A stretch of DNA of 54,641 nt from Ruminococcus sp. (GTDB taxonomy: Bacteria; Bacillota; Clostridia; Oscillospirales; Ruminococcaceae), in NCBI GenBank assembly GCA_017471405.1, contig JAFUTK010000010.1, positions 1 to 54,641 of the forward strand, read 5' to 3'. Of this stretch, positions 248 to 14,921 are shown piece after piece. The first letter of the stretch is position 1. Every line of letters starts with the position of its first letter. The position numbers and the translations under genes are program-made. The notes under the pieces are model-generated. The model saw nothing but the letters and a program-made list of their open reading frames with translations. It was not told where the DNA came from and did no database searches.

Positions 248-528
248 AATGCGGATATACGTGGTCTTAAACGTTTTCGTGAGGTCAGGATATCAAAAAT
301 CCGTTTGAAATAAAGATTTTTTCACAGCAGAAAAATATATGAAAATCCGACTTCTTAACTTTTTGAAAACAAAGAGTAAACTTTCAGATTTGAGGTCTTT
401 GGTCAATTTGACGATTATTGAGAGTCAAGGCAAAAATTGCTGTCCTGCACAATAATCTGCACAAATATCCCGGAGATGTGTTGGGCAAAGTGCACAAACG
501 TTGCGGAGGCGCAAAAAACCTTTTCCTA

Positions 529-536
529 AAACGTTT
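529..536. promoter_or_regulatory. LacI/CcpA-like operator candidate next to the -35 box
   Basis: The palindrome AAACGTTT lies nine bases upstream of the -35 hexamer of the transport-locus promoter. Related sites occur at about 270 (TAAACGTTTT) and 497 (CAAACGTTG). LacI-family regulators, including CcpA, bind palindromes with a central CG of this type. The fit to the CcpA cre consensus is imperfect, so the regulator is not identified. Confidence 0.35.
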
Positions 537-544
537 GCGCCGCC

Positions 545-573
545 TTGACAAAAACCTTTATAATTGGTATAAT
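545..573 (+). promoter_or_regulatory. Sigma-A-type promoter of the transport locus
   Basis: A perfect TTGACA -35 box (545-550) and a perfect TATAAT -10 box (568-573) are separated by exactly 17 bases, so transcription should start near 580. The next gene downstream is the ABC ATPase at 787, and no terminator is seen before 14495, so this promoter probably drives all or most of the ten-gene locus. Confidence 0.85.
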
Positions 574-664
574 TAAGATTAGCTAATTGAGTCCATTTGC
601 GGATTTGGTTATCTAAAATCACCAAAACAACGGGATTTATACGCCAGTTTTGGGCATTTTTACT

Positions 665-702
665 ACATATTGTGGCGGCCGGTCGGCTGCTGCACAATAT
701 GT
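665..702 (+). promoter_or_regulatory. Leader hairpin in the 5' untranslated region
   Basis: ACATATTGTG (665-674) and CACAATATGT (693-702) form a perfect ten-base stem, with further near-complementary GC-rich sequence inside it. A direct repeat of AAAATCAC(C/A)AAAAC flanks the hairpin at 615-628 and 719-732. The leader is long enough for RNA-level control, but it matches no riboswitch class I recognise. There is no immediate U-tract, so it is not a simple terminator. Confidence 0.5.
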
Positions 703-786
703 TTGGCTTTGATTTGTTAAAATCACAAAAACGGCTCCGAACGGACGGAATTTGTGTAATCTGCATCAAGCGAAGAGGTCAGGCTT

Positions 787-1464
787 ATGGGAGCAATAAT
801 CACCACAAGCGGTCTGTGCCGCGATTTCAAGATCGGCGACGGCAGCATCGTCTCCGCACTGAAAAACGTTAATATCGAGATCGAGCAGGGCAAGCTGACC
901 ATTCTGCGGGGACGCTCCGGAAGCGGTAAGACCACGCTGATAAACATTCTGGGAGCCCTCGACAAGCCCACCGCGGGAAGCGTTATGTTCGACGGGAGAG
1001 ACATTACAAAGCTCTCGGAGAAAAAGCGCGACGAGCTGCGGCGGTATGAGATGAGCTTTGTGTTCCAGTCGGTGGCGCTGATGAGCAGTATGAACGCCTA
1101 TGAAAACGTGGAGTTCGGGCTGCGGCTGTCGAAGTTCCCCTATGGGGAGCGGGACAAGCGAGTACGCGAGGTAATGCGCAGCGTGGGACTGGAGAAGAGA
1201 ATGTTCCACCGGCCCAGCGAGATGTCCGGAGGCGAGCAGCAGAGGGTGGCTATTGCGAGGGCGATAGCTCACGACCCGAAGGTGGTGTTCGCTGACGAGC
1301 CTACCGCCGAGCTGGATACGGCGACTGCACTGCACGTTGTGAAGCTCTTCAAGGAGCTGGTGGCGGAGCAGGGAATGACGATCATTATGACGACGCACGA
1401 CCCCAGTATGATAGACATAGCTGACAGGGTCTACACGCTTGAGGACGGTGAGATCGTTGAGTGA
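787..1464 (+). CDS. ABC transporter ATP-binding protein (LolD/MacB-like)
   Basis: This 225-residue protein is a single ABC nucleotide-binding domain. It shows Walker A GRSGSGKT (residues 42-49), the signature MSGGEQQR (about 146-153), Walker B VVFADEP with the catalytic Glu (about 166-172) and the H-loop THD (about 203). The sequence around Walker A and the short length resemble the LolD/MacB/FtsE-type group more than the longer MalK/MsmX ATPases that normally drive sugar importers. An AGAGG ribosome site lies eight bases before the ATG. It is the first gene of the locus and overlaps the next ATPase gene, so the two may form a heterodimer. Its partner permeases are inferred from context only. 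Confidence 0.85.
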   Translation: MGAIITTSGLCRDFKIGDGSIVSALKNVNIEIEQGKLTILRGRSGSGKTTLINILGALDKPTAGSVMFDGRDITKLSEKKRDELRRYEMSFVFQSVALMSSMNAYENVEFGLRLSKFPYGERDKRVREVMRSVGLEKRMFHRPSEMSGGEQQRVAIARAIAHDPKVVFADEPTAELDTATALHVVKLFKELVAEQGMTIIMTTHDPSMIDIADRVYTLEDGEIVE

Positions 1465-2458
1465 TGTTACTGAGAAGGTCGCTGCGGTGTACGACCCGAT
1501 AATCGAGGAGGAAAAGCCCTCCGATAATAAGAGTATAGCACCCGCAGATGATGAATATATGATACGCTGTGAGAATCTGGTGAAAATTTACAAGACTGAT
1601 GAGATAGAGGTCGTGGCGCTGCAGGGCTTGGACCTGGACGTGAAGCGCGGAGAGCTCATGGCGATAGTCGGAAACTCCGGAAGCGGAAAGTCAACGCTTT
1701 TGAATATGCTGGGAGGCCTTGACAAGCCCTCGGCGGGAAGCCTTACCGTTGACGGTAAAAACCTTCTGAAGTTTAACGACAAGGATTATATGGAGTACAA
1801 GCGGGATACGGTTGGGTTCGTGTGGCAGAACAATGCGAGGAATCTGGTGCCGTACCTATCGGCGGTGCAGAATGTTGAGCTGCCGATGCTGCTCAAGGGC
1901 AAAAAGCAAAGGCGCAAGCGGGCGCTGGAGCTGCTGGAAAAGGTGGGGCTCTCACACAGAGTCAATTCAAGGCTCGACCAGATGTCCGGAGGTGAGCAGC
2001 AGAGAGTGGCAATAGCCATTGCGCTGGCAAATGACCCCAAGCTGCTGCTGGCAGACGAGCCCACCGGCTCGGTGGATACAAAGACCTCGAATATGATACT
2101 TGACATATTCAAGGCGCTGAATGAATCGGAGGGGTTGACCATCGTTATCGTTACCCACGACGTAAAGCTATCGAAAAGGATAGACAGAGTTGTGGCGATA
2201 AGAGATGGGCGAACAAGCTCTGAGATAGTCAGAAAAAAGTCCTACGCTCAGGAGCTGGGCGAGATGGGAAGCATCATCGGCGGAGCCGGAGAGGACGAGG
2301 AGGACACCCACGAGGAGCTCGTGGTGCTGGACCGCTCGGGACGGCTGCAGCTGCCGAAGGACTATATGGAGTCGCTGGGAATTAAGGGCGGCGACAAGGT
2401 CAAGGTAGAGCTGGACGAGGAAACGGGAAAGATGTTCCTGTTCAAGTCCGGGGAATAA
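1457..2458 (+). CDS. ABC transporter ATP-binding protein with C-terminal AbrB-like domain
   Basis: A second LolD/MacB-like ATPase. A short acidic N-terminal extension (about 35 residues) precedes the domain. Walker A GNSGSGKS is at about 72-79, signature MSGGEQQR at about 176, Walker B LLLADEP at about 196, and the H-loop is VTHD. After the ATPase domain and an acidic linker, residues about 288-333 read LDRSGRLQLPKDYMESLGI and continue with GGDKVKVELDEETGK, which fits the SpoVT/AbrB swapped-hairpin pattern (D-x-x-G-R-x-x-[IL]-P-K-x(6)-[IL]-x-x-G-D). Such domains bind DNA or mediate dimerisation; on an ABC ATPase this is unusual. The start is uncertain: TTG at 1457 overlaps the upstream stop, and ATG at 1559 would still give the full ATPase domain. 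Confidence 0.8.
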   Translation: MSDVTEKVAAVYDPIIEEEKPSDNKSIAPADDEYMIRCENLVKIYKTDEIEVVALQGLDLDVKRGELMAIVGNSGSGKSTLLNMLGGLDKPSAGSLTVDGKNLLKFNDKDYMEYKRDTVGFVWQNNARNLVPYLSAVQNVELPMLLKGKKQRRKRALELLEKVGLSHRVNSRLDQMSGGEQQRVAIAIALANDPKLLLADEPTGSVDTKTSNMILDIFKALNESEGLTIVIVTHDVKLSKRIDRVVAIRDGRTSSEIVRKKSYAQELGEMGSIIGGAGEDEEDTHEELVVLDRSGRLQLPKDYMESLGIKGGDKVKVELDEETGKMFLFKSGE

Positions 2459-2592
2459 GGTCAATACCCGTGACACGCGGGATATATAGACGCCGGAGAA
2501 TAAAGGCTGACTTATACTATTATTAATGTAACAAAGGGAAGTCGGGCTTTGGGAGTTTCTAACGGCAAAATTTTACGAAAGGTGGAAGGAAC

Positions 2593-5490
2593 TTGAAAAG
2601 CACATTTTTGAAACGTGTTATTTCATCTGCACTTGCATTATCGCTGGCAGCTACCTGCGGCTTGTCGGCGTTTGCGGCAGAAAGCGACAGCGAAGCGCTT
2701 GACCTCTCGGCAGAGGTCATCGACGCCAGCAACCGCGAAAAGGCATACGCTAACTACATAAAGAAGTATGCCGACGCGGCAAGACCTGATAAAGAGGTCA
2801 CGATAAACGGCGCTGATTATGTTGACTTCGGCGGCGGAGCCGTGATAACTACCGAAACGGTAGACGGCGAGAGCAACGTTGCCAAGTGGGCAAATCAGGA
2901 GGGAACGCTCACCTATGAGGTGGACGTGCCCGAGACAGGCGTTTACAACATCGAGGCTATGTATGAGGCTCTTGCGGGAGGAACTACCAGCATTGAGTTT
3001 GCTCTCTTTATTGACGGAGAGTGCCCCTACACTACGGCTTCGAGAATAACGCTGCCCAAGAGATGGGTCAACAAGACCGATATCCAGCAGGATATCAGAG
3101 GAAACGATATTCGTCCCGGACAGGTCGAGGAGGTATGCTGGCAGGTAATGCCGCTGAAGGATACCGACGGTCTGACCAACGATCCTCTCGGCTTCTATTT
3201 TGAAAAGGGCAAGCACAAGCTCATGCTGCAGTCCACCAAGGCGCAGTTTGCCATTAAGTATTTCAAACTCTATCAGGAGAAGGCTCCTGAGGCTTACGTT
3301 CTTCCCAACGCATCGGCGATAGCAGGCTCGCACGCTGACAGGATCCTCCTGGAGGGCGAGACCGCCGATTACAAGACGGACAGAACTCTGTTCCCGACAG
3401 CAGACAGAAACTCCTACCTGACATCTTCGGTCAACGGTCAGAGCCCGACCAAGACCAGATATAACACCATCGGCAAGGACAACTGGAGCAAGGCTACGCA
3501 GGCTGCCACCTGGAAGTTTACCGTTACTACGGCAGGCTACTATAAGATAGGCATCCGCGCTAAGCAGGATTCTATGAGAGGAATGTACTCCAACAGACGT
3601 CTTTACATCGACGGAGTTGTTCCCAACAAGGAAAGCGCCCAGATCAAGTTCTATTACGATACCGACTGGAACCTTGTTGTTCCCTCTATTGGCGATGACC
3701 CGATGTTCTATTATCTCGACGCTGGCGAGCATACCCTCACCCTTGAGGCGGTTCCTGGAGAGATCGGCGAGATCATGGGAGATATCGACGAGATCGTTTA
3801 TACCGTAAATAAGTATTACCGCAAGATAAGAGCTATAACCGGTCCTAACCCTGACGAATACAACAACTACGATATCAAGGGAGCTATCCCTGAGATACTT
3901 ACTGTATTCCAGGAGAGCTCCGACAGCCTGAGAGAGCAGATGAAGAAGATCGAGAAGCTCTCCGGCTCCGGCGGAACCGAGGCGGTAACTCTTGACAAGC
4001 TGGCTATTGTGCTTGACAAGTGTATCGCTAAGACCGACAGAATACCCAACATGATGAGCCAGATCAAGGATAACGTTACCTCTGTTTCATCGTGGGTAAA
4101 CCAGTACAGAGAGCAGCCGCTGGAGATAGATATGATCGAGATCCTTACCGACGATCAGGAGTTCACCAGCGCTGACGAGAGCTTCTTCAAGTCGATATCC
4201 TTCGGTTTCAAGGCTTTCATAGGCTCCTTCTTCGAGGATTACAACTCTCTGGCAGAGGACGACAAGTCGGCTATGGTATGCTGGATAACCCTTGGACGTG
4301 ATAACGCCACCGCTATCCAGACCCTTATCTCCAACGAGTACAACCCCACTGCCAACACCAAGGTAAACCTTAAGCTGGTACAGGGCGGTATCATCGAGGC
4401 TACCTTTGCAGGAAAGGGCCCTGATATGGCGCTCTTCCTGGGCGGCGACTTCCCGATACAGCTGGCGGTACGAGATGTTCTCGTTGACCTGACGCAGTTT
4501 GACGACTTTGACGAGGTAATGAAGCGCTTCTCACCGCAGGCAGGCGTGCTCTACGAGTACAACGACGGCGTTTACGGTCTGCCCGTTTCGCAGACCTTCC
4601 CGATGCTGTTCTACCGCTCGGACGTTCTGAATGAGTACGGCATTGACCCGAAGACCGACCTGACTACCTGGGACGGACTGCTGAAGGTGCTGCCTACTAT
4701 CCAGAGAAACTATATGGAGATAGGTCTGATACTTCCCGCAGGAAGCGTCATCTCCCCTGTTACAGAGTCCGGAAACACCTTTGCGACAATGCTGCTGCAG
4801 AAGGGCGTCAACTACTATAACGAGGACCTGACCAAGACCAACTTCGACAAGCAGGAGGCTATCGACGCTTTCGACGCTTGGACCAAGTTCTATACTACCT
4901 ACAGCTTCGAGCAGACCTACGATGCATTCACCAGATTCAGACAGGGCGATATGCCTATTCTGATACAGAACTACACCTTCTTTAACCAGCTGACAGTTGC
5001 AGCACCTGAGATCAAGGGCTGCTGGAGCTTCCAGCCCGTTCCCGGAACTGTTCAGGCAGACGGAACTATCAATCACGCTTCCTGCTCCGCAGGTGCGGCG
5101 GCTGTTATCTTCGCAAGCCTGGATGAGGATAAGCAGAAGGATGCTTGGGAGTTCATCAAGTGGTTCACCTCTGCTGAGACTATGACCAGCTACGGCAACG
5201 ACATCGAGGCTATCGTTGGAACAATGGGACGCTTCGATACCGCAAACCTTGAGGCTCTGGAGCACCTCTCCTGGACTACCAGCGAGGTAGCACTTCTCAA
5301 GGAGCAGCTGCTCTCTCAGGTAGAGATACCCGTTATCCCTGCTTCCTACGGTGTAACGAGAGGCATTATGAACGCCTTCAGAGAGACTGTAAACAACTCT
5401 GAGAATGCAAGAGACACACTGTTCTGGTACAACAAGGACATCAACGATGAGATCACACGTAAGCGCGAGGATCTCGGACTTAATAAGTAA
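2593..5490 (+). CDS. Large secreted extracellular solute-binding protein with N-terminal carbohydrate-binding-like domains
   Basis: This 965-residue protein starts at a TTG preceded by GGTGGAAGG. A signal peptide covers about residues 1-29 (AFA/AES). No convincing lipobox is present, unlike most Gram-positive binding proteins. Two beta-rich segments follow (about 65-235 and 245-415), each with CBM6/35-like phrases (VDVPETGVYNIEAMYEA; FTVTTAGYYKIGIRAKQD). A helical stretch links them to a family-1 binding-protein domain (about 555-960; CWITLGRDNATAIQTLI, PDMALFLGGDFPIQLA, YGLPVSQTFPMLFYRSD). It is roughly twice the usual length. The next two genes encode sugar-type permeases, so it should capture a carbohydrate or glycan fragment; the substrate is unknown. 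Confidence 0.85.
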   Translation: MKSTFLKRVISSALALSLAATCGLSAFAAESDSEALDLSAEVIDASNREKAYANYIKKYADAARPDKEVTINGADYVDFGGGAVITTETVDGESNVAKWANQEGTLTYEVDVPETGVYNIEAMYEALAGGTTSIEFALFIDGECPYTTASRITLPKRWVNKTDIQQDIRGNDIRPGQVEEVCWQVMPLKDTDGLTNDPLGFYFEKGKHKLMLQSTKAQFAIKYFKLYQEKAPEAYVLPNASAIAGSHADRILLEGETADYKTDRTLFPTADRNSYLTSSVNGQSPTKTRYNTIGKDNWSKATQAATWKFTVTTAGYYKIGIRAKQDSMRGMYSNRRLYIDGVVPNKESAQIKFYYDTDWNLVVPSIGDDPMFYYLDAGEHTLTLEAVPGEIGEIMGDIDEIVYTVNKYYRKIRAITGPNPDEYNNYDIKGAIPEILTVFQESSDSLREQMKKIEKLSGSGGTEAVTLDKLAIVLDKCIAKTDRIPNMMSQIKDNVTSVSSWVNQYREQPLEIDMIEILTDDQEFTSADESFFKSISFGFKAFIGSFFEDYNSLAEDDKSAMVCWITLGRDNATAIQTLISNEYNPTANTKVNLKLVQGGIIEATFAGKGPDMALFLGGDFPIQLAVRDVLVDLTQFDDFDEVMKRFSPQAGVLYEYNDGVYGLPVSQTFPMLFYRSDVLNEYGIDPKTDLTTWDGLLKVLPTIQRNYMEIGLILPAGSVISPVTESGNTFATMLLQKGVNYYNEDLTKTNFDKQEAIDAFDAWTKFYTTYSFEQTYDAFTRFRQGDMPILIQNYTFFNQLTVAAPEIKGCWSFQPVPGTVQADGTINHASCSAGAAAVIFASLDEDKQKDAWEFIKWFTSAETMTSYGNDIEAIVGTMGRFDTANLEALEHLSWTTSEVALLKEQLLSQVEIPVIPASYGVTRGIMNAFRETVNNSENARDTLFWYNKDINDEITRKREDLGLNK

Positions 5491-5508
5491 GGAAGGAGGA
5501 GAGCTTCG

Positions 5509-6453
5509 ATGGCAAAGAGTAATTATGACCCCAATGCCCCTATTATAAAACAGGGCAGGCTGAGATACACATGGCACATGATGAAGGTCAATAAGGGCTG
5601 CTACGGACTTCTCGCTCCCTTTATGATACTGTTCACGGTGTTCACTGTTATCCCCGTTGTGATGTCCCTTCCTATGGGCTTTACGAACTTTAACATGATT
5701 CAGACCCCGAAGTGGGTAGGCTTCTCGAACTTCTATACGCTGTTCTTAAATGACGACGTATTCCTTATCGCAGTAAGAAACACTCTTATCTTTGCGATAT
5801 TCACGGGACCCTTCTCATATGTACTGAGCTTCTTCATTGCATGGCTCATCAACGAGATGCATCCCTTCCTGAAGACCTTCTTCACCTTCGTGTTCTACGC
5901 ACCCTCGATGACCACATCGGTTTATGTAACCTGGCAGCTGATTCTTTCGGGCGATAGCTACGGTTATCTGAACGCTATAATGATGGACATCGGACTGTTC
6001 ACCTCACCGAAGCAGTTCCTGACTGATACCAACTACATCTTACCTGTAGTTATCATCGTTCAGTTATGGATATCCATGGGCGCAGGCTTCCTTGCGATCC
6101 GTGCAGGCTTCCAGAACATCGACAAGTCGATGTACGAGGCGGGCGCTATCGAGGGCATCAAGAACCGCTGGCAGGAACTGTTCACCATCACAATTCCTTC
6201 AATGGGACCTCAGCTGCTGTTCGCGGCGGTAATGCAGATCTCCGCATCGTTTACTGTAGGTCAGGTAGGACAGATGCTCGTCGGACTTCCTTCGACGGAC
6301 TACGCGGCTCACACTATTATGAACCACGCTACCGACTACGGCTCGATACGTTACGAGATGGGCTACGCTTCGGCGATATGCTTTGTACTGTTCATGGCCA
6401 TGCTGCTCGCTAATAAGGGAGTTAACTGGCTGCTGGGCAAATATCTTGACTAA
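5509..6453 (+). CDS. Carbohydrate ABC transporter permease, MalF/LplB type (pair 1)
   Basis: A 314-residue inner-membrane permease with six predicted membrane segments. The cytoplasmic EAA loop that contacts the ATPase is readable as YEAGAIEGIKNRWQELFTI near residues 205-225. A GGAGGAG ribosome site precedes the ATG, which lies 18 bases after the binding-protein gene. With the next gene it forms the first MalF/MalG-type permease pair. The substrate cannot be read from the sequence. Confidence 0.9.
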   Translation: MAKSNYDPNAPIIKQGRLRYTWHMMKVNKGCYGLLAPFMILFTVFTVIPVVMSLPMGFTNFNMIQTPKWVGFSNFYTLFLNDDVFLIAVRNTLIFAIFTGPFSYVLSFFIAWLINEMHPFLKTFFTFVFYAPSMTTSVYVTWQLILSGDSYGYLNAIMMDIGLFTSPKQFLTDTNYILPVVIIVQLWISMGAGFLAIRAGFQNIDKSMYEAGAIEGIKNRWQELFTITIPSMGPQLLFAAVMQISASFTVGQVGQMLVGLPSTDYAAHTIMNHATDYGSIRYEMGYASAICFVLFMAMLLANKGVNWLLGKYLD

Positions 6454-6470
6454 AGGGGGGAGAACTGAAG

Positions 6471-7370
6471 ATGGCAAGAAAAAAGAAAAAGCAGGTCTCT
6501 ATCGACAAGCTCAAGGTCAAGGATAAAAAGAAGCGCGTTAACGGTTCTCTCGGCGGAGATATAGCGATCTTCATATTCCTGGCACTTCTGGGATTGTTCA
6601 TGATATTCCCGATCTACTATTCGTTCATTCAGTCGATAAAGCCTATTGAGGAGCTGTTCGTGTTCCCGCCTAAGCTTTACGTTCTGAACCCCACTACCAA
6701 GAGCTTCTCGGATATGTTCACCGTTGCAGCTTCACTGTGGGTTCCCCTTTCGAGATACATATTCAACAGCGTATTCATCACAGTTGTTATCTGTATCTGC
6801 AACCTGTTCGTTTGCTGCTGCGCAGGCTTCGCGCTTTCAAAGTGCAAGTTCCCCGGAGCAAACTTCTTCAACAAGCTGATCGTTACAGCGCTGCTGTTCG
6901 CATCGAACGCTACATGGATCATGCAGTTCATGGTTTACTCCAAGCTGCACATCATTGATACCTACTGGGTACTGATCCTGCCTTCCATCGCTACTCCTCT
7001 GGGACTGTTCCTGATGAGACAGTCGATGTCAACTATTCACGATTCGATGATTGAGGCTGCAAAGGTGGACGGTGCGGGACTGTTCAGGATCTGCTGGCAG
7101 ATCGTGGTTCCCAACTCCAAGCCTGCGCTGATGACGCTGATCATCTTCGCCTTCCAGGGTGCATGGAACCTGCAGGGTGGCTCGCTGATCTACTCCGAGG
7201 AGTTAAAGACTCTGCCTACCATCGTTCAGCAGATAGCTGCTGTCGGTCTGGCAAGACAGGGTGTAACCTTCGCCTCGGCTGTACTGCTTCTTATTCCGCC
7301 GCTGGTCGTATTCCTTATCGCACAGAGCAACGTCATGGAGACCATGGCTAACTCCGGTATCAAGGATTAA
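6471..7370 (+). CDS. Carbohydrate ABC transporter permease, MalG/LplC type (pair 1)
   Basis: A 299-residue permease with a lysine-rich cytoplasmic N-terminus (KKKKKQVSIDKLKVKDKKK) followed by six membrane segments. The EAA loop reads IEAAKVDGAGLFRICWQIVV near residues 196-215. GGGGGGAG precedes the ATG. It pairs with the upstream MalF-type permease; both should carry the substrate delivered by the large binding protein. Confidence 0.9.
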   Translation: MARKKKKQVSIDKLKVKDKKKRVNGSLGGDIAIFIFLALLGLFMIFPIYYSFIQSIKPIEELFVFPPKLYVLNPTTKSFSDMFTVAASLWVPLSRYIFNSVFITVVICICNLFVCCCAGFALSKCKFPGANFFNKLIVTALLFASNATWIMQFMVYSKLHIIDTYWVLILPSIATPLGLFLMRQSMSTIHDSMIEAAKVDGAGLFRICWQIVVPNSKPALMTLIIFAFQGAWNLQGGSLIYSEELKTLPTIVQQIAAVGLARQGVTFASAVLLLIPPLVVFLIAQSNVMETMANSGIKD

Positions 7371-7418
7371 TGACAAGCTGACCATTATAATAAACGGAAA
7401 GGAAACAGGTGATAAGCA

Positions 7419-9203
7419 TTGAAAAATCCATTAAGAAAAGCGCTCAGCCTGACGATGGCAGCTGTCACCGCTATGTCGATGTCGGTAACCGCCTTCGCAG
7501 ACGAGCCGTATAACTCATACAATTACGATACGTGGGATGACGCAGTTCCTTCACAGAGCGCCTATATGACAGTTACGACTATCACAGGCGAGCAGATGAA
7601 GCTGGAGAGGCTGAGAGACCCCTCCGATGAGCTTTATGTGAGCGAGAGCGCTCCTGTAACGCTGGCTGACTCCAGAGATATGTGCATTGACGACGCAAGA
7701 AAGCAGCTCTGGGTGGCAGACACCAAGAACAACCGTCTGTTGCAGCTGAACCTTGATACCTATGAGATCGAGGGAGTTTACACAGGAGTTTCCGACGGAG
7801 GCAGCGAGAGCTCCTTCGCAGGACCTCAGGGCGTGTTCGTTGCGGAGAGCGACGAGCTCGGCGGTCAGGCAATATACATTGCCGATACGGACAACTCCAG
7901 AGTTGTAAAGGCTAAGGTAAAGGACGGTAGAACTCTTGAGCTGGTGACAGAATACACCAAGCCTGAGGATCCGCTCTACACTGTTAATACCTTCAACCCC
8001 AAGAAGGTACTGGCAGACAAGGCTGAGAACGTTTATACCGTTGTAAACGCAGTAAACACCGGTTCGGTACTGTTCGCAAGAGGCGGAGACTTCAAGGGAT
8101 TCTACGGCGCTAACCGTGTTAACGTTACGGCGGCGGTAATCGCCCAGAGGATCTGGAGAGCTATCGCTTCCGAGGCTCAGTTGGAAGGTATGACCAGAAA
8201 CGTTCCTATCGAGTACGCAAACTTCGATATCGACCTGGACGGCTTTATTTACACCGTTACAGAGATCAATACCGATACTGACTCGGTAAAGAAGCTCAAC
8301 CCCGCAGGCTACAACATCTGGAATAATGCCAAGGGTAATGAGTACAAGTTCGGTGATATCACCGGACCTATGTGGGACCCCATCGCAAACAAGACTCACA
8401 ACATCAGACTGACTGACCTGGATATCAGCTCCACGGGACTGATAAACGTGCTCGACTTCGAGACCGGACGTGTGTTCCAGTACGACAAGGAGTGCAACCT
8501 GGTCTGCATCTTCGGAACAAAGACCTCCACCAACGACCAGAGAGGAGCTATGGCAAATCCCAACGCCGTTGAGACCTACGGCAATAAGGTATATGTCCTC
8601 GACGGTGCGAAGAGCGATATCACAGTGTTCCAGGAGACACAGTTCGGAAAGTACATTCACAACGCATTCGCTCTCTACGATGAGGGACGTTATGTTGACG
8701 CCAAGGACGACTGGAACGAGGTTATCAAGAGAGACGGCGGCTACACCTGGGCTTACATCGGTCTGGGCAAGGCGGCACTCAACCAGGAGCAGTACACCAA
8801 GGCGCTGAAGTACTTCAAGACCGCTTACGATCAGGACGATTACGATAAGGCTTATAAGTACGCAAGAGAGGCTTTCCTCCGCGATCACTTCACTGCCATC
8901 ATAGTTATCATTGTTCTTCTGATAGCTCTCATCATTGTGAGAAAGGTTATGAAGAAGAAGGGAATGAAGCTAATCAAGAGAAAGGCAAAGCCCATTCTCG
9001 CAACGGCTGGGCCCTCAATACCGCCTCCGGCAAATGACATAGAGGAGACTGTAGACGAGGCTGAGGCTGAGGTCAGCGAGACTGTGGAGGCTGTTGAAGA
9101 TACTGCTGATGCAGTAGAGGAAGAGGTTTCTGAGGCAGCGGAAGAGGTTACCGACGCTGCGGAGGAGCTCACCGAAGAGACTGAAGATAAGGAGGGAGAA
9201 TAA
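7419..9203 (+). CDS. Secreted, membrane-anchored NHL-repeat and TPR protein with acidic cytoplasmic tail
   Basis: A 594-residue protein starting at TTG after CAGGTGAT. A signal peptide covers about residues 1-27 (AFA/DEP). NHL-type beta-propeller blades follow (LADSRDMCIDDARKQLWVAD; GPQGVFVAE; IYIADTDNSRVV), then tetratricopeptide repeats near residues 410-485 (FALYDEGRYVDAKDDWNEVI; YIGLGKAALNQEQYTKALKY). A single membrane helix (about 490-508) is followed by basic residues and a cytoplasmic tail of about 60 residues made almost entirely of Glu, Ala, Val, Thr and Asp. NHL and TPR folds usually mediate binding, so an extracytoplasmic assembly or sensing role for the transporter is inferred. 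The tail resembles the N-terminus of the permease at 12252. Confidence 0.75.
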   Translation: MKNPLRKALSLTMAAVTAMSMSVTAFADEPYNSYNYDTWDDAVPSQSAYMTVTTITGEQMKLERLRDPSDELYVSESAPVTLADSRDMCIDDARKQLWVADTKNNRLLQLNLDTYEIEGVYTGVSDGGSESSFAGPQGVFVAESDELGGQAIYIADTDNSRVVKAKVKDGRTLELVTEYTKPEDPLYTVNTFNPKKVLADKAENVYTVVNAVNTGSVLFARGGDFKGFYGANRVNVTAAVIAQRIWRAIASEAQLEGMTRNVPIEYANFDIDLDGFIYTVTEINTDTDSVKKLNPAGYNIWNNAKGNEYKFGDITGPMWDPIANKTHNIRLTDLDISSTGLINVLDFETGRVFQYDKECNLVCIFGTKTSTNDQRGAMANPNAVETYGNKVYVLDGAKSDITVFQETQFGKYIHNAFALYDEGRYVDAKDDWNEVIKRDGGYTWAYIGLGKAALNQEQYTKALKYFKTAYDQDDYDKAYKYAREAFLRDHFTAIIVIIVLLIALIIVRKVMKKKGMKLIKRKAKPILATAGPSIPPPANDIEETVDEAEAEVSETVEAVEDTADAVEEEVSEAAEEVTDAAEELTEETEDKEGE

Positions 9204-9204
9204 G

Positions 9205-9834
9205 ATGTATGAATTTACACCTATGGGTTGGCTGAAGCATGTTATTTTCCACCCTGTTGAAGGCTTTGAGGACCTGAGATGGAAAAAGCAGGGCTCGATG
9301 AAGATCGCACTGATAATCGTCTTCCTGCTGTTTGTGGTAATGGTCGCTGACAGACAGCTGACAGGCTTCCAGTTCAACACCGCTTATGTAAAGGTATTCA
9401 ACGTTGTGCCTCTGCTGGTACAGTCGGTAGTTTACTTCTTTACATGGGTAATCGGAAACTGGGCGCTGTGTACGCTGTTCGACGGCGAAGGCACACTCAA
9501 GAAGATCTGCATCTACTCGGCATACGCTCTGGTACCTTACATCGTTTGCAGCGCAATATCCATCTTTATCTCGAACTTTATAGTTCAGGAGGAGCGCATC
9601 TGGATGACAGCTATCTACTATCTGGGACTTATCTGGTCGGTAGTGCTGATGATCCAGGCAATGAAGGCGGCGCATCAGTACAGCTTTACAAAGACTCTCG
9701 TGTCGATGTTCTTCACGCTGGTGGCAATGCTGCTGATACTCTTCCTTGCGATACTGCTGCTCTCGCTGTTCCAGCAGGTTTACGTTTTCGGTTATTCGAT
9801 ATACACAGAAATCGCTTATCGAATCAGAGGCTAA
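9205..9834 (+). CDS. YIP1-family membrane protein
   Basis: A 209-residue polytopic protein with about five hydrophobic segments. It starts one base after the stop of the NHL-TPR gene, so translation is probably coupled. The N-terminus (GWLKHVIFHPVEGFEDLRWKK) and the FYxW/NWALCTLFDGEGTLKKI region match the pattern of bacterial Yip1-domain proteins. In eukaryotes Yip1 proteins act in membrane traffic; the bacterial members have no settled function. The placement between the NHL-TPR and DUF5696 genes suggests a membrane partner of this transporter. Confidence 0.7.
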   Translation: MYEFTPMGWLKHVIFHPVEGFEDLRWKKQGSMKIALIIVFLLFVVMVADRQLTGFQFNTAYVKVFNVVPLLVQSVVYFFTWVIGNWALCTLFDGEGTLKKICIYSAYALVPYIVCSAISIFISNFIVQEERIWMTAIYYLGLIWSVVLMIQAMKAAHQYSFTKTLVSMFFTLVAMLLILFLAILLLSLFQQVYVFGYSIYTEIAYRIRG

Positions 9835-9852
9835 TTAAGAAACGGTGGTGTA

Positions 9853-12252
9853 ATGAAAATGGCTGACAGAAAATTAAAAAAGGCGATAGTCTTTGCCTTG
9901 GTTCTTACAATGCTGATGCCTCTGGGTTCGATGGCTGCGTCCTCTACCGAGGACGAGGCTGCTGCGGCAACTGCCGACAGCGCTGACGCTTCCGCCGACA
10001 GCGGAGATTCCGGTGACGATGACGGAGGAAAGACCTCCGAGCTCGCCGAGCGAATCACCGATGAGGACGCGATCGCTCTGGAAAGCTGCGAGGAGTACGA
10101 ATCCAACGATAAGTACATTCTCTACGGCGACCAGGATAACGACCGCTGGGGCGTTTACTCAAAGGCAACAGGAAACTTCACTTGGAGCTCCCCCATCAAC
10201 GTAATGGCAGAGGATACGATAGTTGATACTACCAAGAACTCGATGATGAAGGACGCCAAGAGAAAGCAGATAGCTTCAAGCTCCGCTATCAAGATCGGAG
10301 ACTTAAGGCAGGAAAAGAGAACTGAGTCGCCTGCACCTGTTTACTCGACCAAGTCTAAGGTTAAGTATTCCAAGGAAAACGGCGGCATCAAGATCAACTA
10401 CAAGTATTCCTCCTCCGGAGTTGAGTTTACCTCTCACGTTCAGCTGACCGATTATGGCGTTTACGTTTACGTTGACACCTCGGAGATCGTTGAGAAGAAC
10501 ACCTCCACTACGGACGGAAAGATACTTACCAAGCTGCAGCTTGCTCCCTCCTTCGGAGCGGTGGCAGCTGAGGACGGCGAGGGCAATCCCACTGAGGGCT
10601 ATATGATAGTTCCTGACGGAAGCGGCGCTGTCATCAAGTACAACAACGGCAAGCAGAGCTACGCTGAGTATTCTCAGCAGGTCTACGGCAGAGATTACAC
10701 TCCTGTGCCGATGATCGCTCCCAGAGTTACCGAGCAGGCTTACCTGCCGATGGTAGCTTCCGTAAACGGCAACAAGGGCTTTGTTGCTATCGTCAGTGAC
10801 GGTGACGCCAATGTTTACGCAAAGGCAAAGGTAAGCCGTCAGGACAATCAGGTATACAACATCGCATACTTCGAGTTCGAGACAAAGAGCAGTGACTCCT
10901 TCTACATGAGCGGTGATAACTCCAACAAGATCAACGTTTTCGAGAAGGGCGATATCAAGACCCCGCGCTTCGGCATCAGATACTATCTGGTAGAGCAGGA
11001 CGAGGATATCAACTACGCTGACTGCGCAGAGGTATACAGAAATTACCTCATCGAGCAGGGCCTCACTGCAAAGACCAAGGAGAACGACAGCAAGTTCTAT
11101 GTTGACTTCTTCGGCGGAGTTCTAAAGCAGACCTCCATTCTCGGACTTCCCTTCGACCTCAAGACTGAGATCACCGGCTTTGATCAGGCCGGAGAGATCT
11201 ACTCCAAGCTGAAGGAACTGGGCGTCGGAGAGACAGTTGCGAACTACAACGACTGGACGAACAAGTCCATCAAGAGAAAGGTATCCACAAGTGCGAGCGC
11301 ATCCGGCACGCTGGGCGGCAACGGAGACTTCAAGGATCTGATTGCTACCTCCGGACTGGACGTTTACGCTTCGATGAACAACTTCACTATGGAGTCCAGC
11401 TCCTGGGGCTACCTGACCTTCTCCAATACGGCGACGAGAATTTCTAACGCATATTCGAGACAGGTATCCTACAGCCCGGCCTTCGGAGTTGCTATCAACG
11501 GCGTTTCGCCTGCACTTATCGCTCCCTCCACCTACGTCAAGATCTTTGATGAGATGGTAGAGAGCTACAAGAAGAAGGACCTCACAAAGATAGGCTTCGG
11601 CGATCTTTCCACCAAGCTGGTAAGTGATTTCTCCACGAAGAATTCTTCCTCGAGAAACGACACCAAGAACACTATCGTTGAGGGCTTCAAGAAGGCTTCA
11701 TCAGAGGTCGGAGACATTCTCTGTGACGCCGCTAACTCATACGTTATCCCCTACGCTTCCGAGATCACGAACGTTCCGGTATACTCCAGCTCATTCAATC
11801 TGACAGACTATGATATCCCGTTCTATCAGATGGTGATACACGGATATGTACCTTATTCGACCAAGCCTATCAATGCAAGCGCCAACACTTCTGAGACCTT
11901 TATGCTGGCTCTGGCGGCAGGCTCCAACGTTCACTACGATATGGTCTATGAGGAGGCTGCGACCCTTAAGGACACCGATTACGACGATCTTTACTACTCC
12001 AACTACGAGGGCTGGATCGATATGGCGGCAGAGCAGTACAAGGTAGCTAACGAGCTGCTGGCTCCTGTTTCCGATATGACCATCTCCAAGTATGAGATCT
12101 CCGAGGACGGAAACGTTATTACAACGACCTACTCCAAGGACGGAAAGACCGACGTTGTTATCGAGGTCAACAAGGCGAACGCCACTGCCAAGATCGACGG
12201 CAAGACCATTGATCTGGCTAATGCATTAGAAGAAGGAGGTGTGGAAGGCTGA
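9853..12252 (+). CDS. Secreted DUF5696-type protein
   Basis: A 799-residue exported protein. A signal peptide (about 1-29, SMA/ASS) is followed by a low-complexity Ala/Asp/Ser segment and a long beta-rich region. The stretch EGYMIVPDGSGAVIKYNNGK and the following VYGRDYTPVPMIAP are what I recognise as DUF5696, a family usually found beside carbohydrate ABC transporters. Residues about 420-640 could form a glycosidase-like barrel (the phrase FYVDFFGGVLKQTSILGLPF is typical), but I cannot point to catalytic residues. ATG at 9853 and at 9859 are both possible starts. The stop overlaps the next gene's ATG. It may process the substrate or act as a second binding protein. Confidence 0.65.
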   Translation: MKMADRKLKKAIVFALVLTMLMPLGSMAASSTEDEAAAATADSADASADSGDSGDDDGGKTSELAERITDEDAIALESCEEYESNDKYILYGDQDNDRWGVYSKATGNFTWSSPINVMAEDTIVDTTKNSMMKDAKRKQIASSSAIKIGDLRQEKRTESPAPVYSTKSKVKYSKENGGIKINYKYSSSGVEFTSHVQLTDYGVYVYVDTSEIVEKNTSTTDGKILTKLQLAPSFGAVAAEDGEGNPTEGYMIVPDGSGAVIKYNNGKQSYAEYSQQVYGRDYTPVPMIAPRVTEQAYLPMVASVNGNKGFVAIVSDGDANVYAKAKVSRQDNQVYNIAYFEFETKSSDSFYMSGDNSNKINVFEKGDIKTPRFGIRYYLVEQDEDINYADCAEVYRNYLIEQGLTAKTKENDSKFYVDFFGGVLKQTSILGLPFDLKTEITGFDQAGEIYSKLKELGVGETVANYNDWTNKSIKRKVSTSASASGTLGGNGDFKDLIATSGLDVYASMNNFTMESSSWGYLTFSNTATRISNAYSRQVSYSPAFGVAINGVSPALIAPSTYVKIFDEMVESYKKKDLTKIGFGDLSTKLVSDFSTKNSSSRNDTKNTIVEGFKKASSEVGDILCDAANSYVIPYASEITNVPVYSSSFNLTDYDIPFYQMVIHGYVPYSTKPINASANTSETFMLALAAGSNVHYDMVYEEAATLKDTDYDDLYYSNYEGWIDMAAEQYKVANELLAPVSDMTISKYEISEDGNVITTTYSKDGKTDVVIEVNKANATAKIDGKTIDLANALEEGGVEG

Positions 12253-13424
12253 TGAGTGATTTTGAAAAGGATCTGTTAGAGCAGGCAGAGGACAAGGCTG
12301 CTGAGCTTGAGGCAGAGGCTGAAGAGGTCACAGAGGAGGTAAGCGAAGCGGCTGACGAGGCTGCTGAGGCTGCCGAGGGAGCCGCTGAGGAAGCTGCCGA
12401 TGAGGCAGAGCCCGCAGCTGAGGCTATCATCGACGAGACCGCTGAGGAGCTTTCCGAGGACACCGCCGAGGAAGCCGCAGAGACCTATGAGGAGCCGGTG
12501 GCAGTCAATGCAAAGAGTGCAAAGGCGCCCAAGCTCTCCTATGAAAGAAAGAAGCAGCTTTACGGCTACGGCTTCATCGCTCTGTGGATAGTCGGAACAC
12601 TTTACTTCTTCATCTACCCGCTGATAGTTTCGTTCATCTACTCGCTGCACACCACGCACGTTGAGACCGGAGGAATGGAATTCTCAAACAGAGGCTTTGA
12701 CAACTACGTCAATGCCTTCAGAAGAGACACCGAGTACACGAAGGCTCTCGTTGAGACGCTTTCCAACACGGCACTCAAGACACCTCTTATTCTGGTATTC
12801 TCCATATTCATCGCAGTAATACTCAACCAGAAGTTCAGAGGAAGGACCTTTGCAAGAGCTGTATTTTTCCTCCCTGTTATCATCGCAACCGGCCCTGTTA
12901 TCGACATCATCAACGGTAACATGAGCACCAGCGGTACCTCCGGCGGCGCAGAGCAGTTCTCGACAATGTTCGAGGCTAACCTGGTTGACCAGCTGCTGAA
13001 CTTCTTAGGCATCTACAACATCAGCGACAGGCTGACAGAAATCATAAACTCGCTGACATCCGATATCTTCAATCTGGTGTGGAACTCAGGTATTCAGATT
13101 CTGCTGTTCCTCTCGGCACTGCAGGGAATACCCTTCTCCGCAAAGGAAGCCGCACAGATGGAAGGTGCAACGGCTTGGGAATATTTCTGGAAGATCACTA
13201 TTCCCTACATAAGCCCGCAGATCCTTACCTGTCTGGTATATACGATCGTTGACTCCTTCGTAGACCCCGGCAACCAAGTAATGGAGATCGTTCTGAGCAA
13301 GGCAAGCAGCTGGGAGCACGGTTACTCGGCAGCTATGGCGTGGGCATACTTCCTCATCATAGCGGTTGTGCTTGCAATAGTCGTTGCGATAATCAACAAG
13401 TTTATTTACTATGAAGTAGAGTAA
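12252..13424 (+). CDS. Carbohydrate ABC transporter permease, MalF type (pair 2), with Glu/Ala-rich N-terminal extension
   Basis: A 390-residue permease. The first 80 or so residues are almost purely Glu, Ala, Asp, Val and Thr (EEVTEEVSEAADEAAEAAEG) and are predicted cytoplasmic, before a basic linker and the usual six membrane segments. The EAA loop reads AKEAAQMEGATAWEYFWKIT near residue 300. The start overlaps the stop of the DUF5696 gene (TGATG). MalF-type proteins may carry N-terminal additions, but a long acidic tail is uncommon and it echoes the C-terminal tail of the NHL-TPR protein. Confidence 0.88.
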   Translation: MSDFEKDLLEQAEDKAAELEAEAEEVTEEVSEAADEAAEAAEGAAEEAADEAEPAAEAIIDETAEELSEDTAEEAAETYEEPVAVNAKSAKAPKLSYERKKQLYGYGFIALWIVGTLYFFIYPLIVSFIYSLHTTHVETGGMEFSNRGFDNYVNAFRRDTEYTKALVETLSNTALKTPLILVFSIFIAVILNQKFRGRTFARAVFFLPVIIATGPVIDIINGNMSTSGTSGGAEQFSTMFEANLVDQLLNFLGIYNISDRLTEIINSLTSDIFNLVWNSGIQILLFLSALQGIPFSAKEAAQMEGATAWEYFWKITIPYISPQILTCLVYTIVDSFVDPGNQVMEIVLSKASSWEHGYSAAMAWAYFLIIAVVLAIVVAIINKFIYYEVE

Positions 13425-13437
13425 GGGGGGAGTAATA

Positions 13438-14487
13438 GTGGCAACCAAAAAAGAAGAAAAACAGTTTGAAAAAGAACGCAAGGCCGCTATGAAGGCCCGC
13501 CGTAAAAGGATGAAGGAGGAGGGGCTTGAAAAATACCTGACTCCCGAACAGATAAGATACAACAGGAACAAGGCTATTATCGGTTCTGTTTGGCCGATAT
13601 TCAGATTTCTGATCCTGTTCGGTCTCTGCTTCGTAATCCTTTACCCCCTGATCTTTATGATCTCCACAGCATTCAGACCCAACGAGCAGATGAACGACCC
13701 CTCGGTTGTTTGGCTGCCAAAGAGCTTCACGCTTGACAACATCAAGCAGACCTGGCAGGTAATGAAGTTCGACAAGACGGTGCTCAACACCATCAAGCTC
13801 AACCTGATAGCTTCTGTTATTCAGGTGGCTTCTACCGCCATCACAGGCTACGGCTTCGCAAGATTCCAGTTCAAGGGCAAGAAGCTGCTGTTCGCTATAG
13901 TAGTTCTGATGATCATTGTACCCCCTCAGATCACTACTATCCCGCTGTATATGCAGTTCAGATTCTTTAGACCCCAGTTCCTTGCAAAGCTCCTTACTCT
14001 CGGCGATACCTCGCTTATAAGCACAGGCTGGACGATGTACCTGCCTGCACTGTTTGCAAACGGTCTGAGAGCAGGTCTGTTCATCTTCATCTTCCGTCAG
14101 TTCTTCAGAGGACTGCCCAAGGAGCTTGAGGATGCGGCTTACCTCGACGGATGCGGTCCTCTTAAGACCTTCCTCGTCGTAATGGTGCCTAACGCAAAGA
14201 CCTCATTCCTGACAGTATTCCTGTTCTCGATAGTTTGGTATTGGAACGACTTCTATGTATCGAGCTCGTTCTTTACCCACAACGACACCGTTGCGCTGAT
14301 GCTCAAAAACCTCGGAGCACAGCTGCAGCAGGACCTCTTCAACGGCCAGTCGGTATCTCCCAGACAGCTTATCGTTTGGCTTGAAGCCGGATGCGTGCTT
14401 TCGATAACTCCTCTGCTGGTAATGTATGTTTTCCTCCAGAGATACTTCATCGAAGGTATCGAGCGTTCTGGTATCACCGGTATGTAA
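13438..14487 (+). CDS. Carbohydrate ABC transporter permease, MalG type (pair 2)
   Basis: A 349-residue permease starting at GTG after a GGGGGGAG ribosome site. The first 55 residues are highly charged and probably cytoplasmic. Six membrane segments follow, with the EAA loop LEDAAYLDGCGPLKTFLVVM near residues 240-260. It completes the second permease pair. The locus has two ATPases and two permease pairs but only one obvious solute-binding protein. A terminator follows the stop directly. Confidence 0.9.
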   Translation: MATKKEEKQFEKERKAAMKARRKRMKEEGLEKYLTPEQIRYNRNKAIIGSVWPIFRFLILFGLCFVILYPLIFMISTAFRPNEQMNDPSVVWLPKSFTLDNIKQTWQVMKFDKTVLNTIKLNLIASVIQVASTAITGYGFARFQFKGKKLLFAIVVLMIIVPPQITTIPLYMQFRFFRPQFLAKLLTLGDTSLISTGWTMYLPALFANGLRAGLFIFIFRQFFRGLPKELEDAAYLDGCGPLKTFLVVMVPNAKTSFLTVFLFSIVWYWNDFYVSSSFFTHNDTVALMLKNLGAQLQQDLFNGQSVSPRQLIVWLEAGCVLSITPLLVMYVFLQRYFIEGIERSGITGM

Positions 14488-14494
14488 TGACCAT

Positions 14495-14529
14495 AAAAAT
14501 ATCCCCACCGAAAGGCGGGGATATTTTTT
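14495..14529 (+). terminator. Intrinsic terminator of the transport locus
   Basis: AAAAATATCCCC and GGGGATATTTTT form a long stem closed by ACCGAAAGGC, starting eight bases after the last permease stop and ending in a T-run. The A-run on the left means it could act in both directions. Confidence 0.9.
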
Positions 14530-14537
14530 ATGCCCTC

Positions 14538-14811
14538 GGGGAGATGGAGTGAGGGCGGCAGCTTTCTCTGGGGAAAACCTTTCTGAAGAAAGGTTATTCC
14601 CCAGACCCCTTTCCAAAGACTTTTAATTTTTTTTGGCGAGGATACCTGCGGTTCTTGAAAACACAGAGAACTTATTAGTCTGATGTCTTTCCGGTAAATC
14701 GTAGGTATCCTCGCCAAAAAAGTCAGAAGTTTTAGGGAGGGGGTTTGGGGGAGGACCCTTTTTCAAAAGAGTCTCCCCCAAAAAAGGTCACCGCCCTCAC
14801 TCCATCTCCCC
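14538..14811. mobile_element. MITE-like element with 21-bp perfect terminal inverted repeats
   Basis: The ends 14538-14558 and 14791-14811 are perfect 21-base inverted repeats (outer part GGGGAGATGGAGTGAGG). Inside, a second inverted pair is found at about 14627-14650 and 14700-14721 (TTTTGGCGAGGATACCT and its complement), so almost the whole 274 bp can fold on itself. No protein is encoded. The size, perfect termini and lack of coding capacity fit a non-autonomous miniature element. Target-site duplication is not clear, and it could instead be a large fold-back repeat. Confidence 0.6.
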
Positions 14812-14850
14812 AAAGACACAAAAATATTTGATTTTTTTGCGCACAGGGGC

Positions 14851-14879
14851 TTTTCAAATGGGCTGAAATGTAGTATAAT
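14851..14879 (+). promoter_or_regulatory. Probable zapA promoter
   Basis: A TATAAT -10 box (14874-14879) is preceded by TTTTCA (14851-14856) with 17-base spacing. The predicted start lies about 35 bases before the zapA ATG. The -35 box is weak, matching four of six consensus bases. Confidence 0.5.
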
Positions 14880-14921
14880 AAAAATAATAATACCCATTTT
14901 TCAGACGAAAGGAAAATTGTT

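Follow-up and report, generated by a model that had tools for sequence, protein, structure and literature searches.

The ten-gene operon described here very probably holds parts of two ABC systems: the core of a sugar-type importer powered by MsmX, and two ATPases, A1 and A2, that serve an FtsX-type permease and its adaptor (MFP-PERM). The window, that is, the whole stretch of DNA analysed, comprises 54,641 nucleotides from the genome of a rumen-type bacterium, Ruminococcus sp. A first-pass annotation had proposed one composite importer or envelope machine; the ten genes most likely look like parts of two machines, not one new transporter. The observations are the gene content and order, the co-occurrence of genes among genomes, the joint absence of A1/A2 and PERM from two groups, the coupling loops of the permeases MF1 and MG1 and a conserved promoter. 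They also carry a warning: tight grouping in one operon gave no clue to which ATPase goes with which permease, whereas phyletic co-occurrence appears to have done so.

Organization of the operon

Ten open reading frames lie on the forward strand between 787 and 14487 in the ORF listing of the window, and Pfam agrees with the family labels first given to this ten-gene locus.

545..573, + strand: promoter TTGACA-17-TATAAT ahead of the operon (perfect consensus, 12/12 match)
665..702, + strand: leader inverted repeat, arms 665-674 and 693-702 (sequence; arm alignment of 10 genomes)
787..1464, + strand: A1, LolD/MacB-type ABC ATPase (domain searches; orthologues beside an FtsX permease)
1439..2458, + strand: A2, LolD/MacB-type ABC ATPase with a C-terminal MazE/AbrB-like tail (domain searches)
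2593..5490, + strand: large solute-binding protein, 965 aa (Pfam)
5509..6453, + strand: MF1, MalF-type permease with EAA loop (distant model matches; loop alignment)
6471..7370, + strand: MG1, MalG-type permease (Pfam, NCBIfam, EAA alignment)
7419..9203, + strand: NHL-TPR protein (Pfam NHL and TPR)
9205..9834, + strand: YIP1-domain membrane protein (Pfam Yip1)
9853..12252, + strand: DUF5696 protein (PF18952, 523 bits)
12252..13424, + strand: MF2, MalF-type permease (Pfam, NCBIfam, EAA alignment)
13438..14487, + strand: MG2, MalG-type permease (Pfam, NCBIfam, EAA alignment)
14495..14528, + strand: intrinsic terminator of the operon (hairpin with 15-nt arms and T tail)

The single promoter, single terminator and tight spacing noted at first reading were all confirmed, with successive gaps of -26, 134, 18, 17, 48, 1, 18, -1 and 13 bp. 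The terminator was absent from the list of a simple scan and was identified as an inverted repeat followed by a T tail. All 25 checked loci of the window's family have a 12/12 promoter site no more than 600 bp before the operon, with a spacer of 17 bp except in G459 and G342 (18 bp). Such a site precedes the solute-binding protein gene in 7 of 29 other loci checked, four of them being L168-L171; overlapping loci are counted twice in the comparison of promoter density. The leader inverted repeat is a candidate RNA hairpin or operator. When its arms are aligned across 10 genomes from the genus, 86 of the 100 cells are paired, with modest covariation; an Rfam scan of positions 1-16000 gave no match.

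A conserved importer core

The analysis supports the view that the solute-binding protein (SBP), the two MalFG-type pairs and the NHL-TPR, YIP1 and DUF5696 proteins form one composite importer conserved across Bacillota, as judged from sequence comparison. The same order of core genes is seen again in distant genomes, which places their grouping beyond chance. Locus counts given here refer to fetched loci, not to all matches, and some loci share a genome.

The two sugar-type permease pairs and the one large binding protein named in the first-pass annotation were borne out by Pfam and NCBIfam models and by the EAA loops. The binding protein matches SBP_bac_8 (84.7 bits) and SBP_bac_1 in its C-terminal domain, and is an extracellular family-1 solute-binding protein of the kind found in CUT1 importers; its N-terminal part has a weak CBM35-like match below the cut-off. 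BPD_transp_1 matches three of the four permeases. MF1 has no Pfam match and is reached only by distant PotB/GlcT/UgpA models (~39 bits), but its EAA loop aligns in all 34 loci, and the core has the MalF/MalG-type permeases with EAA coupling loop that characterize CUT1 systems. The NHL-TPR protein has a putative signal-like N-terminus and a putative C-terminal membrane helix. It forms one ORF with YIP1 in 17 of 31 distant loci, where fusions were counted as single ORFs of at least 672 aa with both regions, the NHL profile itself containing YIP1 sequence. We know of no described CUT1 system with conserved NHL-TPR, YIP1 and DUF5696 proteins.

The DUF5696 protein matches PF18952 with 523.2 bits over positions 3-608 of 612 (gathering cut-off 25.6) and has a putative signal-like N-terminus. 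Of 197 genomes sampled from the order, 104 have a match above the cut-off; a minority of these matches are short or weak, and neighborhoods were fetched for part of the 104. Weak sub-cut-off matches to the profile, at positions 282-441, came from two proteins, L036 (DUF6259) and L074 (alpha-amylase domain). Among 61 diverse members, no Asp or Glu is at least 90% conserved in about this region by an estimated position mapping, the best being D592 (84%); D255 and D281, the two acids with the highest conservation, are located nearer the N-terminus. For these reasons the protein is not called an enzyme. A search of PDB sequences with the profile gave repeat-protein matches only, all on one short stretch.

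The co-occurrence search proposed for all ten families gave a divided answer. The eight-gene core recurs and its members are conserved together, as the composite-machine proposal implied, but A1 and A2 stand outside this block, being absent from all 20 phylum-level loci (the upstream DNA of L042 is not visible). Annotated DUF5696 loci on plasmid pNP243 of Butyrivibrio fibrisolvens D1 and on a Paenibacillus cellulosilyticus plasmid show the same core order (eight genes, or seven if NHL-YIP1 is fused). Unlike the window, they have no adjoining A1/A2, and GH43 and SBP genes, or ugpC and SBP genes, lie nearby. Of the 20 phylum loci, 16 have a second binding protein close to the core, and none of 17 loci from the window's family does; the profile for this protein was built from 8 of the phylum loci. 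The genes beside the fetched copies point to no single substrate. GH26, GH30, GH43, GH95 and a putative glucoamylase were seen beside different copies of the core.

Co-occurrence of A1 and A2 with PERM

The statement that the ATPases do not resemble MalK/MsmX proved correct. Each contains ABC_tran, neither has a match to OB_MalK or TOBE domains, and neither is of the MalK type. The best NCBIfam model is LolD for both (212.7 and 233.3 bits, below the cut-off of 307.75), so that neither qualifies as a LolD equivalog; they are LolD/MacB-type ATPases, as a MacAB-like system has, at scores below that cut-off. Solved structures related to A2 include LolD and MacB chains, but neither is the top match. 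The true start of A2 may be internal, at ~1559, where the L155 and L157 homologues begin.

In an even sample of 100 family genomes, A1 orthologues were present in 16 at E 1e-60, and PERM was found in all 16 at E 1e-100. PERM occurred in two of the other 84, namely G310, whose contig starts inside A2, and G574, where a partial gene runs up to the end of a contig. In a chosen, non-random set of 41 genomes, PERM was present in 34/34 with A1/A2 versus 0/7 without, one of the seven (G312, 80% complete) being weak evidence. Five of the 16 lack a full-length DUF5696 gene; there A1 adjoins PERM and MFP, and A2 is also present where the contig reaches. In the 11 that have both, A1/A2 are linked to the importer core (11/11). 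It had been foreseen that the ATPases might prove to be conserved with an FtsX/MacB permease and not with the locus. The first half holds for PERM, but in many genomes they also accompany the locus.

The phylogeny of 34 importer loci is consistent with a single acquisition and two losses of A1/A2. Two groups appear to have lost them, G300+G305 (same genus as the window) and G509+G527+G592+G594; each has support of 1.0 and falls within the A1/A2 clade. Searches for PERM in both groups found none, and the importer is kept in each. An ancestral place of A1/A2 in the importer was rejected on the 20 phylum-level loci, which lack them (with the reservation for L042). The pair would be a later addition at the head of the core.

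PERM (about 920-1000 aa) is a duplicated permease of the FtsX type, with two FtsX stretches in the own-genome copy and in L154, L155 and L158, and MFP is an HlyD/MacA-type adaptor (own-genome copy, HlyD_D23 33.3 bits, cut-off 30). They adjoin each other in 19/19 loci. In the window's own genome they lie on a contig other than that of the operon (G000:C77), with no A1/A2-type ATPase there. In genomes with the ten-gene operon, MFP-PERM had no adjoining A1/A2 orthologue in 19 of 19 fetched loci, two of which (G601 and G569) run into contig ends. Full-length PERM matches score 843-970 bits in importer genomes versus 1164-1594 in importer-less genomes; with a profile built from four genes of importer-less genomes, this indicates that PERM of importer genomes is divergent from those seeds. 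Two genomes, G549 and G569, have the ten-gene locus as the neighbor upstream of MFP-PERM, with a GH26 gene between them in G549.

A probable MsmX-type ATPase for the importer

The proposal that A1 and A2 drive the sugar permeases was left without support: the core occurs without them, they track PERM, and the MF1 and MG1 loops are unchanged in one of the two groups that lack them. In G300 and G305, the EAA loops of MF1 and MG1 show 100% identity (means 1.00) with the loops of congeners that carry A1/A2, compared with 79-88% for the whole proteins. For MF2 the loops agree to 98%, and for MG2 to 85 and 76%; the 76% of G305 compares with 86% within the A1/A2 group. For each of the four permeases, the similarity of the loop between congeners lacking A1/A2 and the A1/A2 group equals or exceeds that of the complete protein.

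MsmX is kept in G300, G305 and G308, and is the only sugar-type ATPase seen fitting the importer in A1/A2-less genomes. BPD_transp_1 matches number 6, 8 and 7 in these three genomes; four belong to the importer locus in each (in G305, three among the matches listed), and the remaining listed matches are of the phosphate or amino-acid type. An OB_MalK ATPase is present in 16/16 genomes of the genus, including the window's own (G000:C47). The OB/TOBE domains and the UgpC model were demonstrated on the G308 orthologue, which exceeds the NCBIfam UgpC cut-off, and the genome has the MalK/MsmX/UgpC-type ATPase with OB/TOBE domain of CUT1 systems. Of 28 family genomes with DUF5696 above 400 bits, 26 have an MsmX/UgpC match at E 1e-120, with none found in G540 and G554 (70% and 75% complete); such a match also occurs in 48 of the 72 others and is not specific to importer genomes. 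In P. cellulosilyticus, the importer reads ugpC-SBP-MF-MG-NHL/YIP1-DUF5696-MF-MG, with ugpC in the A1/A2 position. Apart from it lies A1-MFP-PERM-A2-SBP, whose A1 and A2 are 49% and 61% identical to those of the window and whose last gene encodes a sugar-type binding protein. The available text of PMC7658222 and PMC12838199 reports that one orphan MsmX or MsmK can energise several sugar importers. We infer from the distribution, the EAA loops and the adjacent ugpC that MsmX/UgpC energises the importer permeases. A distant MsmX, named at first reading as a possible driver, is likely to be the one.

Proposed arrangement and alternatives

We infer the following arrangement, in its ATPase-permease pairing, substrates, heterodimer, transport direction and order of gain and loss. 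The large binding protein would deliver a glycan to the two MalFG-type pairs of a composite CUT1-type oligosaccharide importer, with NHL-YIP1 and DUF5696 as fixed membrane accessory parts and the stand-alone MsmX/UgpC ATPase (G000:C47) acting in trans. A1 and A2 would together, probably as a heterodimer, provide the nucleotide-binding subunits of a MacAB-like machine that also contains MFP and PERM. In an ancestor within the window's family, the pair would have come between the consensus promoter and the first importer gene, apart from MFP-PERM.

The promoter-like site ahead of MFP-PERM is weaker than that of the operon. Since A1/A2 stand under the importer promoter, they could exceed PERM in amount and have a second partner. 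The shared operon and the binding protein beside the Paenibacillus exporter may reflect functional coupling of both systems; the G549/G569 neighborhood and the same binding protein suggest a possible link between the exporter and sugar uptake. Taken further, the location of A1/A2 in the importer operon, MFP-PERM downstream of it and the Paenibacillus SBP gave rise to a tentative and rather unlikely proposal, in which A1-A2-MFP-PERM is a mechanical machine coupled to carbohydrate uptake by the DUF5696 importer. It would clear or present envelope glycans, or export a glycan-derived product, and A1/A2 would be kept under the importer promoter because of that coupling.

It is improbable that A1/A2 power PERM and also assist one MalFG pair or swap with MsmX. 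The contrast between the perfect promoter and the weaker site ahead of MFP, the presence of two different permease pairs, the somewhat divergent MG2 loop of G305 and the multitask ATPases among sugar importers (in the available text of PMC7658222) would fit such dual use, but the loop conservation in all four permeases of A1/A2-less congeners, with identity in MF1 and MG1, and the OB_MalK ATPase kept throughout the genus argue against it.

Very improbable is a new importer in which A1/A2 form the ATPase dimer of both MalFG pairs. The common operon and promoter and the 11/11 linkage speak for it. Against it stand the 20 phylum loci and two nested groups with a core but no A1/A2, the identical MF1/MG1 loops of G300+G305, the ugpC inside the Paenibacillus operon, and the five genomes of the 100-genome family sample that lack full-length DUF5696 but have A1/A2 beside PERM.

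It is hardly credible that the A2 tail, or the A1/A2 pair, controls importer transcription or assembly and powers no transporter: the MazE/AbrB-like tail (15/16 aligned A2 proteins, G601 lacking it), a MazE match above the cut-off in L006 (25.7 versus 24.7 bits) and the leader repeat are consistent with it, but the tail is also found on A2 of PERM operons without the importer, the Walker, signature and H-loop motifs are invariant in the A2 alignment, and the MazE match is below the cut-off in the window (24.3 bits), L008 and L009 and unreported for A2 of L002, L010 and Paenibacillus.

Relation to known systems

With MsmX as its probable ATPase, the importer resembles the orphan-ATPase CUT1 importers AraNPQ of B. 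subtilis (with MsmX) and Athe_0595-0598 of A. bescii (with MsmK). The available portions of PMC7658222 and PMC12838199 describe the same EAA permeases and extracellular SBP, and a MalK-type gene that usually does not adjoin them, MsmX being encoded elsewhere in the genome. Unlike these, the present operon has two permease pairs, a 965-aa SBP and A1/A2 in front.

A1, A2, MFP and PERM resemble the MacAB-like pump Spr0693-0694-0695 of Streptococcus pneumoniae, also Gram-positive, which combines an adaptor, an FtsX/MacB-type permease and a LolD/MacB-type ATPase in the part of PMC5768738 available. Compared with that pump as described there, the present system would pair one duplicated permease (about 920-1000 aa) with two distinct ATPases, whose genes mostly lie apart from the permease gene in the window's family. 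From LolD/MacB ATPases in general, A1/A2 differ by scores below the LolD cut-off and A2 by its extra MazE/AbrB-like tail. An outer membrane is not expected in the window's organism.

The accessible part of a Ruminococcus albus transcriptome paper (PMC4300822) gave no tie to the locus. The importer operon is widespread; neither a description of it or its core nor a mention of DUF5696 was found in the literature searched. In the small genomes G300 and G305 (93% and 83% complete), the DUF5696 importer may be the main ABC route for glycan uptake, since no other ABC permease set of the sugar type was found there.

The importer locus and its promoter

The host genome (2.04 Mb, 64% complete; the window is its contig C55) has as nearest named relatives Ruminococcus or uncultured Clostridia MAGs, several of rumen origin. 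The ten-gene locus with one promoter and one terminator, as described in the first-pass annotation, was present in full:

545-573: promoter, perfect consensus
787-14487, + strand: ten ORFs, in the order A1, A2, SBP, MF1, MG1, NHL-TPR, YIP1, DUF5696, MF2, MG2
14495-14528: intrinsic terminator

A1 and A2 are both LolD/MacB-type ATPases, SBP is a binding protein of 965 aa, and MF1-MG1 and MF2-MG2 are MalFG-type permease pairs. A 12-of-12 promoter lay within 600 bp upstream of the operon in all 25 family loci examined, two without A1/A2 included, and upstream of SBP in four more family loci without A1/A2 (L168-L171) and in 3 of 25 other loci scanned; the background was 78 such sites per 1,889,426 bases of fetched loci, with overlaps counted twice. 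The importer promoter is kept with or without A1/A2, and these genes therefore sit between it and the first importer gene. The importer operon may be constitutive. An inverted repeat in the leader (665-702, between promoter and A1) is conserved in 10 genus genomes, with conserved arms, a variable loop and modest covariation.

The eight-gene core across Bacillota

Matches to DUF5696 above the Pfam cut-off occurred at phylum level in 26 of 299 sampled genomes, at order level in 104 of 197 (some of these partial or weak) and within the genus in 15 of 16; in the genus genome without it, G307, A1 and one BPD_transp_1 permease share one short contig. NHL/YIP1, DUF5696, MF2 and MG2 were all found in 20/20 phylum-level loci (in L048, MF2-MG2 were seen upstream and the contig stops after DUF5696), preceded by SBP-MF1-MG1 in 14 of them. 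NHL and YIP1 form a single ORF in 17 of 31 distant loci, as counted from ORF length and position. Named carriers of the core are Butyrivibrio fibrisolvens D1 and Paenibacillus cellulosilyticus. A1/A2 orthologues were found in none of the 20 phylum-level loci, the upstream DNA of L042 lying beyond view. Being conserved phylum-wide without A1/A2, the core is therefore an old composite importer, which A1/A2 joined later; an importer of this composite type is so far undescribed.

G378 also bears a second DUF5696 module (L140, contig C161; 687-aa NHL ORF, DUF5696, MF2, MG2) on a contig other than that of its full ten-gene locus. In a distant DUF5696 locus (L054), the protein encoded downstream of MG2 (16920-18998; 693 aa) matches SpoIVB peptidase S55 at 27.1 bits, against a cut-off of 25.

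A1/A2 as probable ATPases of an exporter

In an even sample of 100 family genomes, A1 orthologues (threshold E 1e-60; 58-100% identity) occurred in 16, of which 11 had DUF5696 at >400 bits. In all 11, A1-A2 lay directly upstream of SBP (the gap in G541 holds a called 157-aa ORF, and the fetched stretch of G577 stops inside SBP). DUF5696 at this level was present in 28 of the 100 genomes, 17 of them without A1, counting G310 owing to a contig break. The remaining five A1 genomes were without full-length DUF5696, and there A1, with A2 where the contig extends, adjoins an HlyD-type adaptor (MFP) and a permease of 940-950 aa with FtsX domains (PERM). A PERM profile (E 1e-100) matched 18 of the same 100 genomes: all 16 with A1, G310, whose contig begins inside A2, and G574, whose PERM is partial and at a contig edge.

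It had been proposed that A1/A2 power both permease pairs within one composite machine. The composite importer stands, as the 20 phylum-level loci show, whereas the assignment of A1/A2 as its ATPases is not supported: across 41 selected genomes A1/A2 track PERM, found in 34/34 genomes with them and 0/7 without. Most likely, A1/A2 are the ATPases of a split MacAB-like system, housed in the importer operon. In the window's own genome MFP-PERM lies on contig C77 with no adjoining A1/A2 orthologue, and the same arrangement was seen in all 19 MFP-PERM loci fetched from genomes with the ten-gene operon (those of G601 and G569 reach contig ends). The promoter-like site of MFP-PERM is weaker than that of the importer (TAGAAA-17-TATAAT, 6/6 genus loci fetched).

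Seven importer proteins from each of 34 loci were concatenated for a tree, in which two groups of loci without A1/A2, G300+G305 and G509+G527+G592+G594, each had support 1.0. The topology fits a single gain of A1/A2, in the common ancestor of 29 of the loci, followed by losses in these two groups, with repeated gains as a formal alternative. A search for PERM in these six genomes did not find it, and the importer is kept. In a joint A1/A2 tree the importer-linked A1 rows formed one clade (97/97), resolution being on the A1 side and not the A2 side. MFP-PERM lies downstream of the importer, after MG2, in G549 (L163/L175; with a GH26-CBM35 gene between) and G569 (L164/L176); thus in at least two lineages exporter and importer are linked at both ends.

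The P. cellulosilyticus plasmid with the importer also bears the exporter separately (ATPase-adaptor-PERM-ATPase-binding protein), its ATPases showing 49% identity to A1 and 61% to A2 of the window. Thus the two systems occur apart, each having its own ATPase type. The gene behind the second exporter ATPase (L203, 8908-11351) encodes a sugar-type binding protein (SBP_bac_1, 86.7 bits); it counts against the exporter as a pure bystander and is one basis for a less probable reading in which the exporter works with sugar uptake.

A MazE/AbrB-like tail was found on A2 in 15 of 16 aligned proteins. Its Pfam MazE match is weak, near the cut-off of 24.7 (window 24.3 bits, L006 25.7 bits), and was unreported for A2 of L002 and L010. 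The second P. cellulosilyticus ATPase has a tail like that of A2, judged by eye, with no MazE match in the Pfam search. The tail might, as a guess, serve dimerisation or DNA binding.

The probable ATPase of the importer

Two papers describe orphan MsmX/MsmK as energising several sugar importers (PMC7658222, PMC12838199). An OB_MalK ATPase occurred in 16/16 genus genomes; in five it is a stand-alone 380-aa protein with no adjoining MalFG-type permease gene (L098, own genome; L100, L101, L102, L104), and G300 has the same protein with less flank visible. The G308 protein exceeds the NCBIfam UgpC cut-off (485 vs 432 bits). Of the 28 family genomes with DUF5696 >400 bits, 26 had an MsmX-type match at E 1e-120, and the two without one are 70% and 75% complete; such a match was also present in 48 of 72 other family genomes, so presence alone is not specific to importer genomes. 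In G300, G305 and G308, BPD_transp_1 permeases beyond the importer locus are of phosphate or amino-acid type; one of the eight G305 matches is unlisted and is probably its MF1.

Between G300/G305, which lack A1/A2, and A1/A2-bearing congeners, the EAA loops of MF1 and MG1 are 100% identical (whole proteins 79-88%). The figure is 98% for MF2, and for MG2 85% and 76%, against 86% inside the A1/A2 group. A UgpC-type scan of 84 loci gave three matches: ugpC 37 bp upstream of SBP in P. cellulosilyticus, a UgpC-type ATPase ~2 kb upstream of SBP in G600, and a stand-alone msmX ~10 kb upstream in G577.

A barrel fold is suggested for DUF5696 by a weak overlap, below the cut-off, with a protein of alpha-amylase type, but among 61 members no acidic residue was at least 90% conserved in about the region of overlap.

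Other features of the window

Just downstream of the terminator lies a long nested imperfect palindrome (14525-14824; 109-nt arms, 74% complementary) that looks like a MITE-type element. A 16-base core of its end was found in 0/203 fetched loci. Its ends are a perfect 21-bp inverted repeat (14538-14558 and 14791-14811), and folding of 14488-14800, which takes in the terminator, gave a z of -13.3. Chemotaxis-type genes occupy 19901-25027, with a CheA-like kinase (at 19901) followed by CheB (at 24008).
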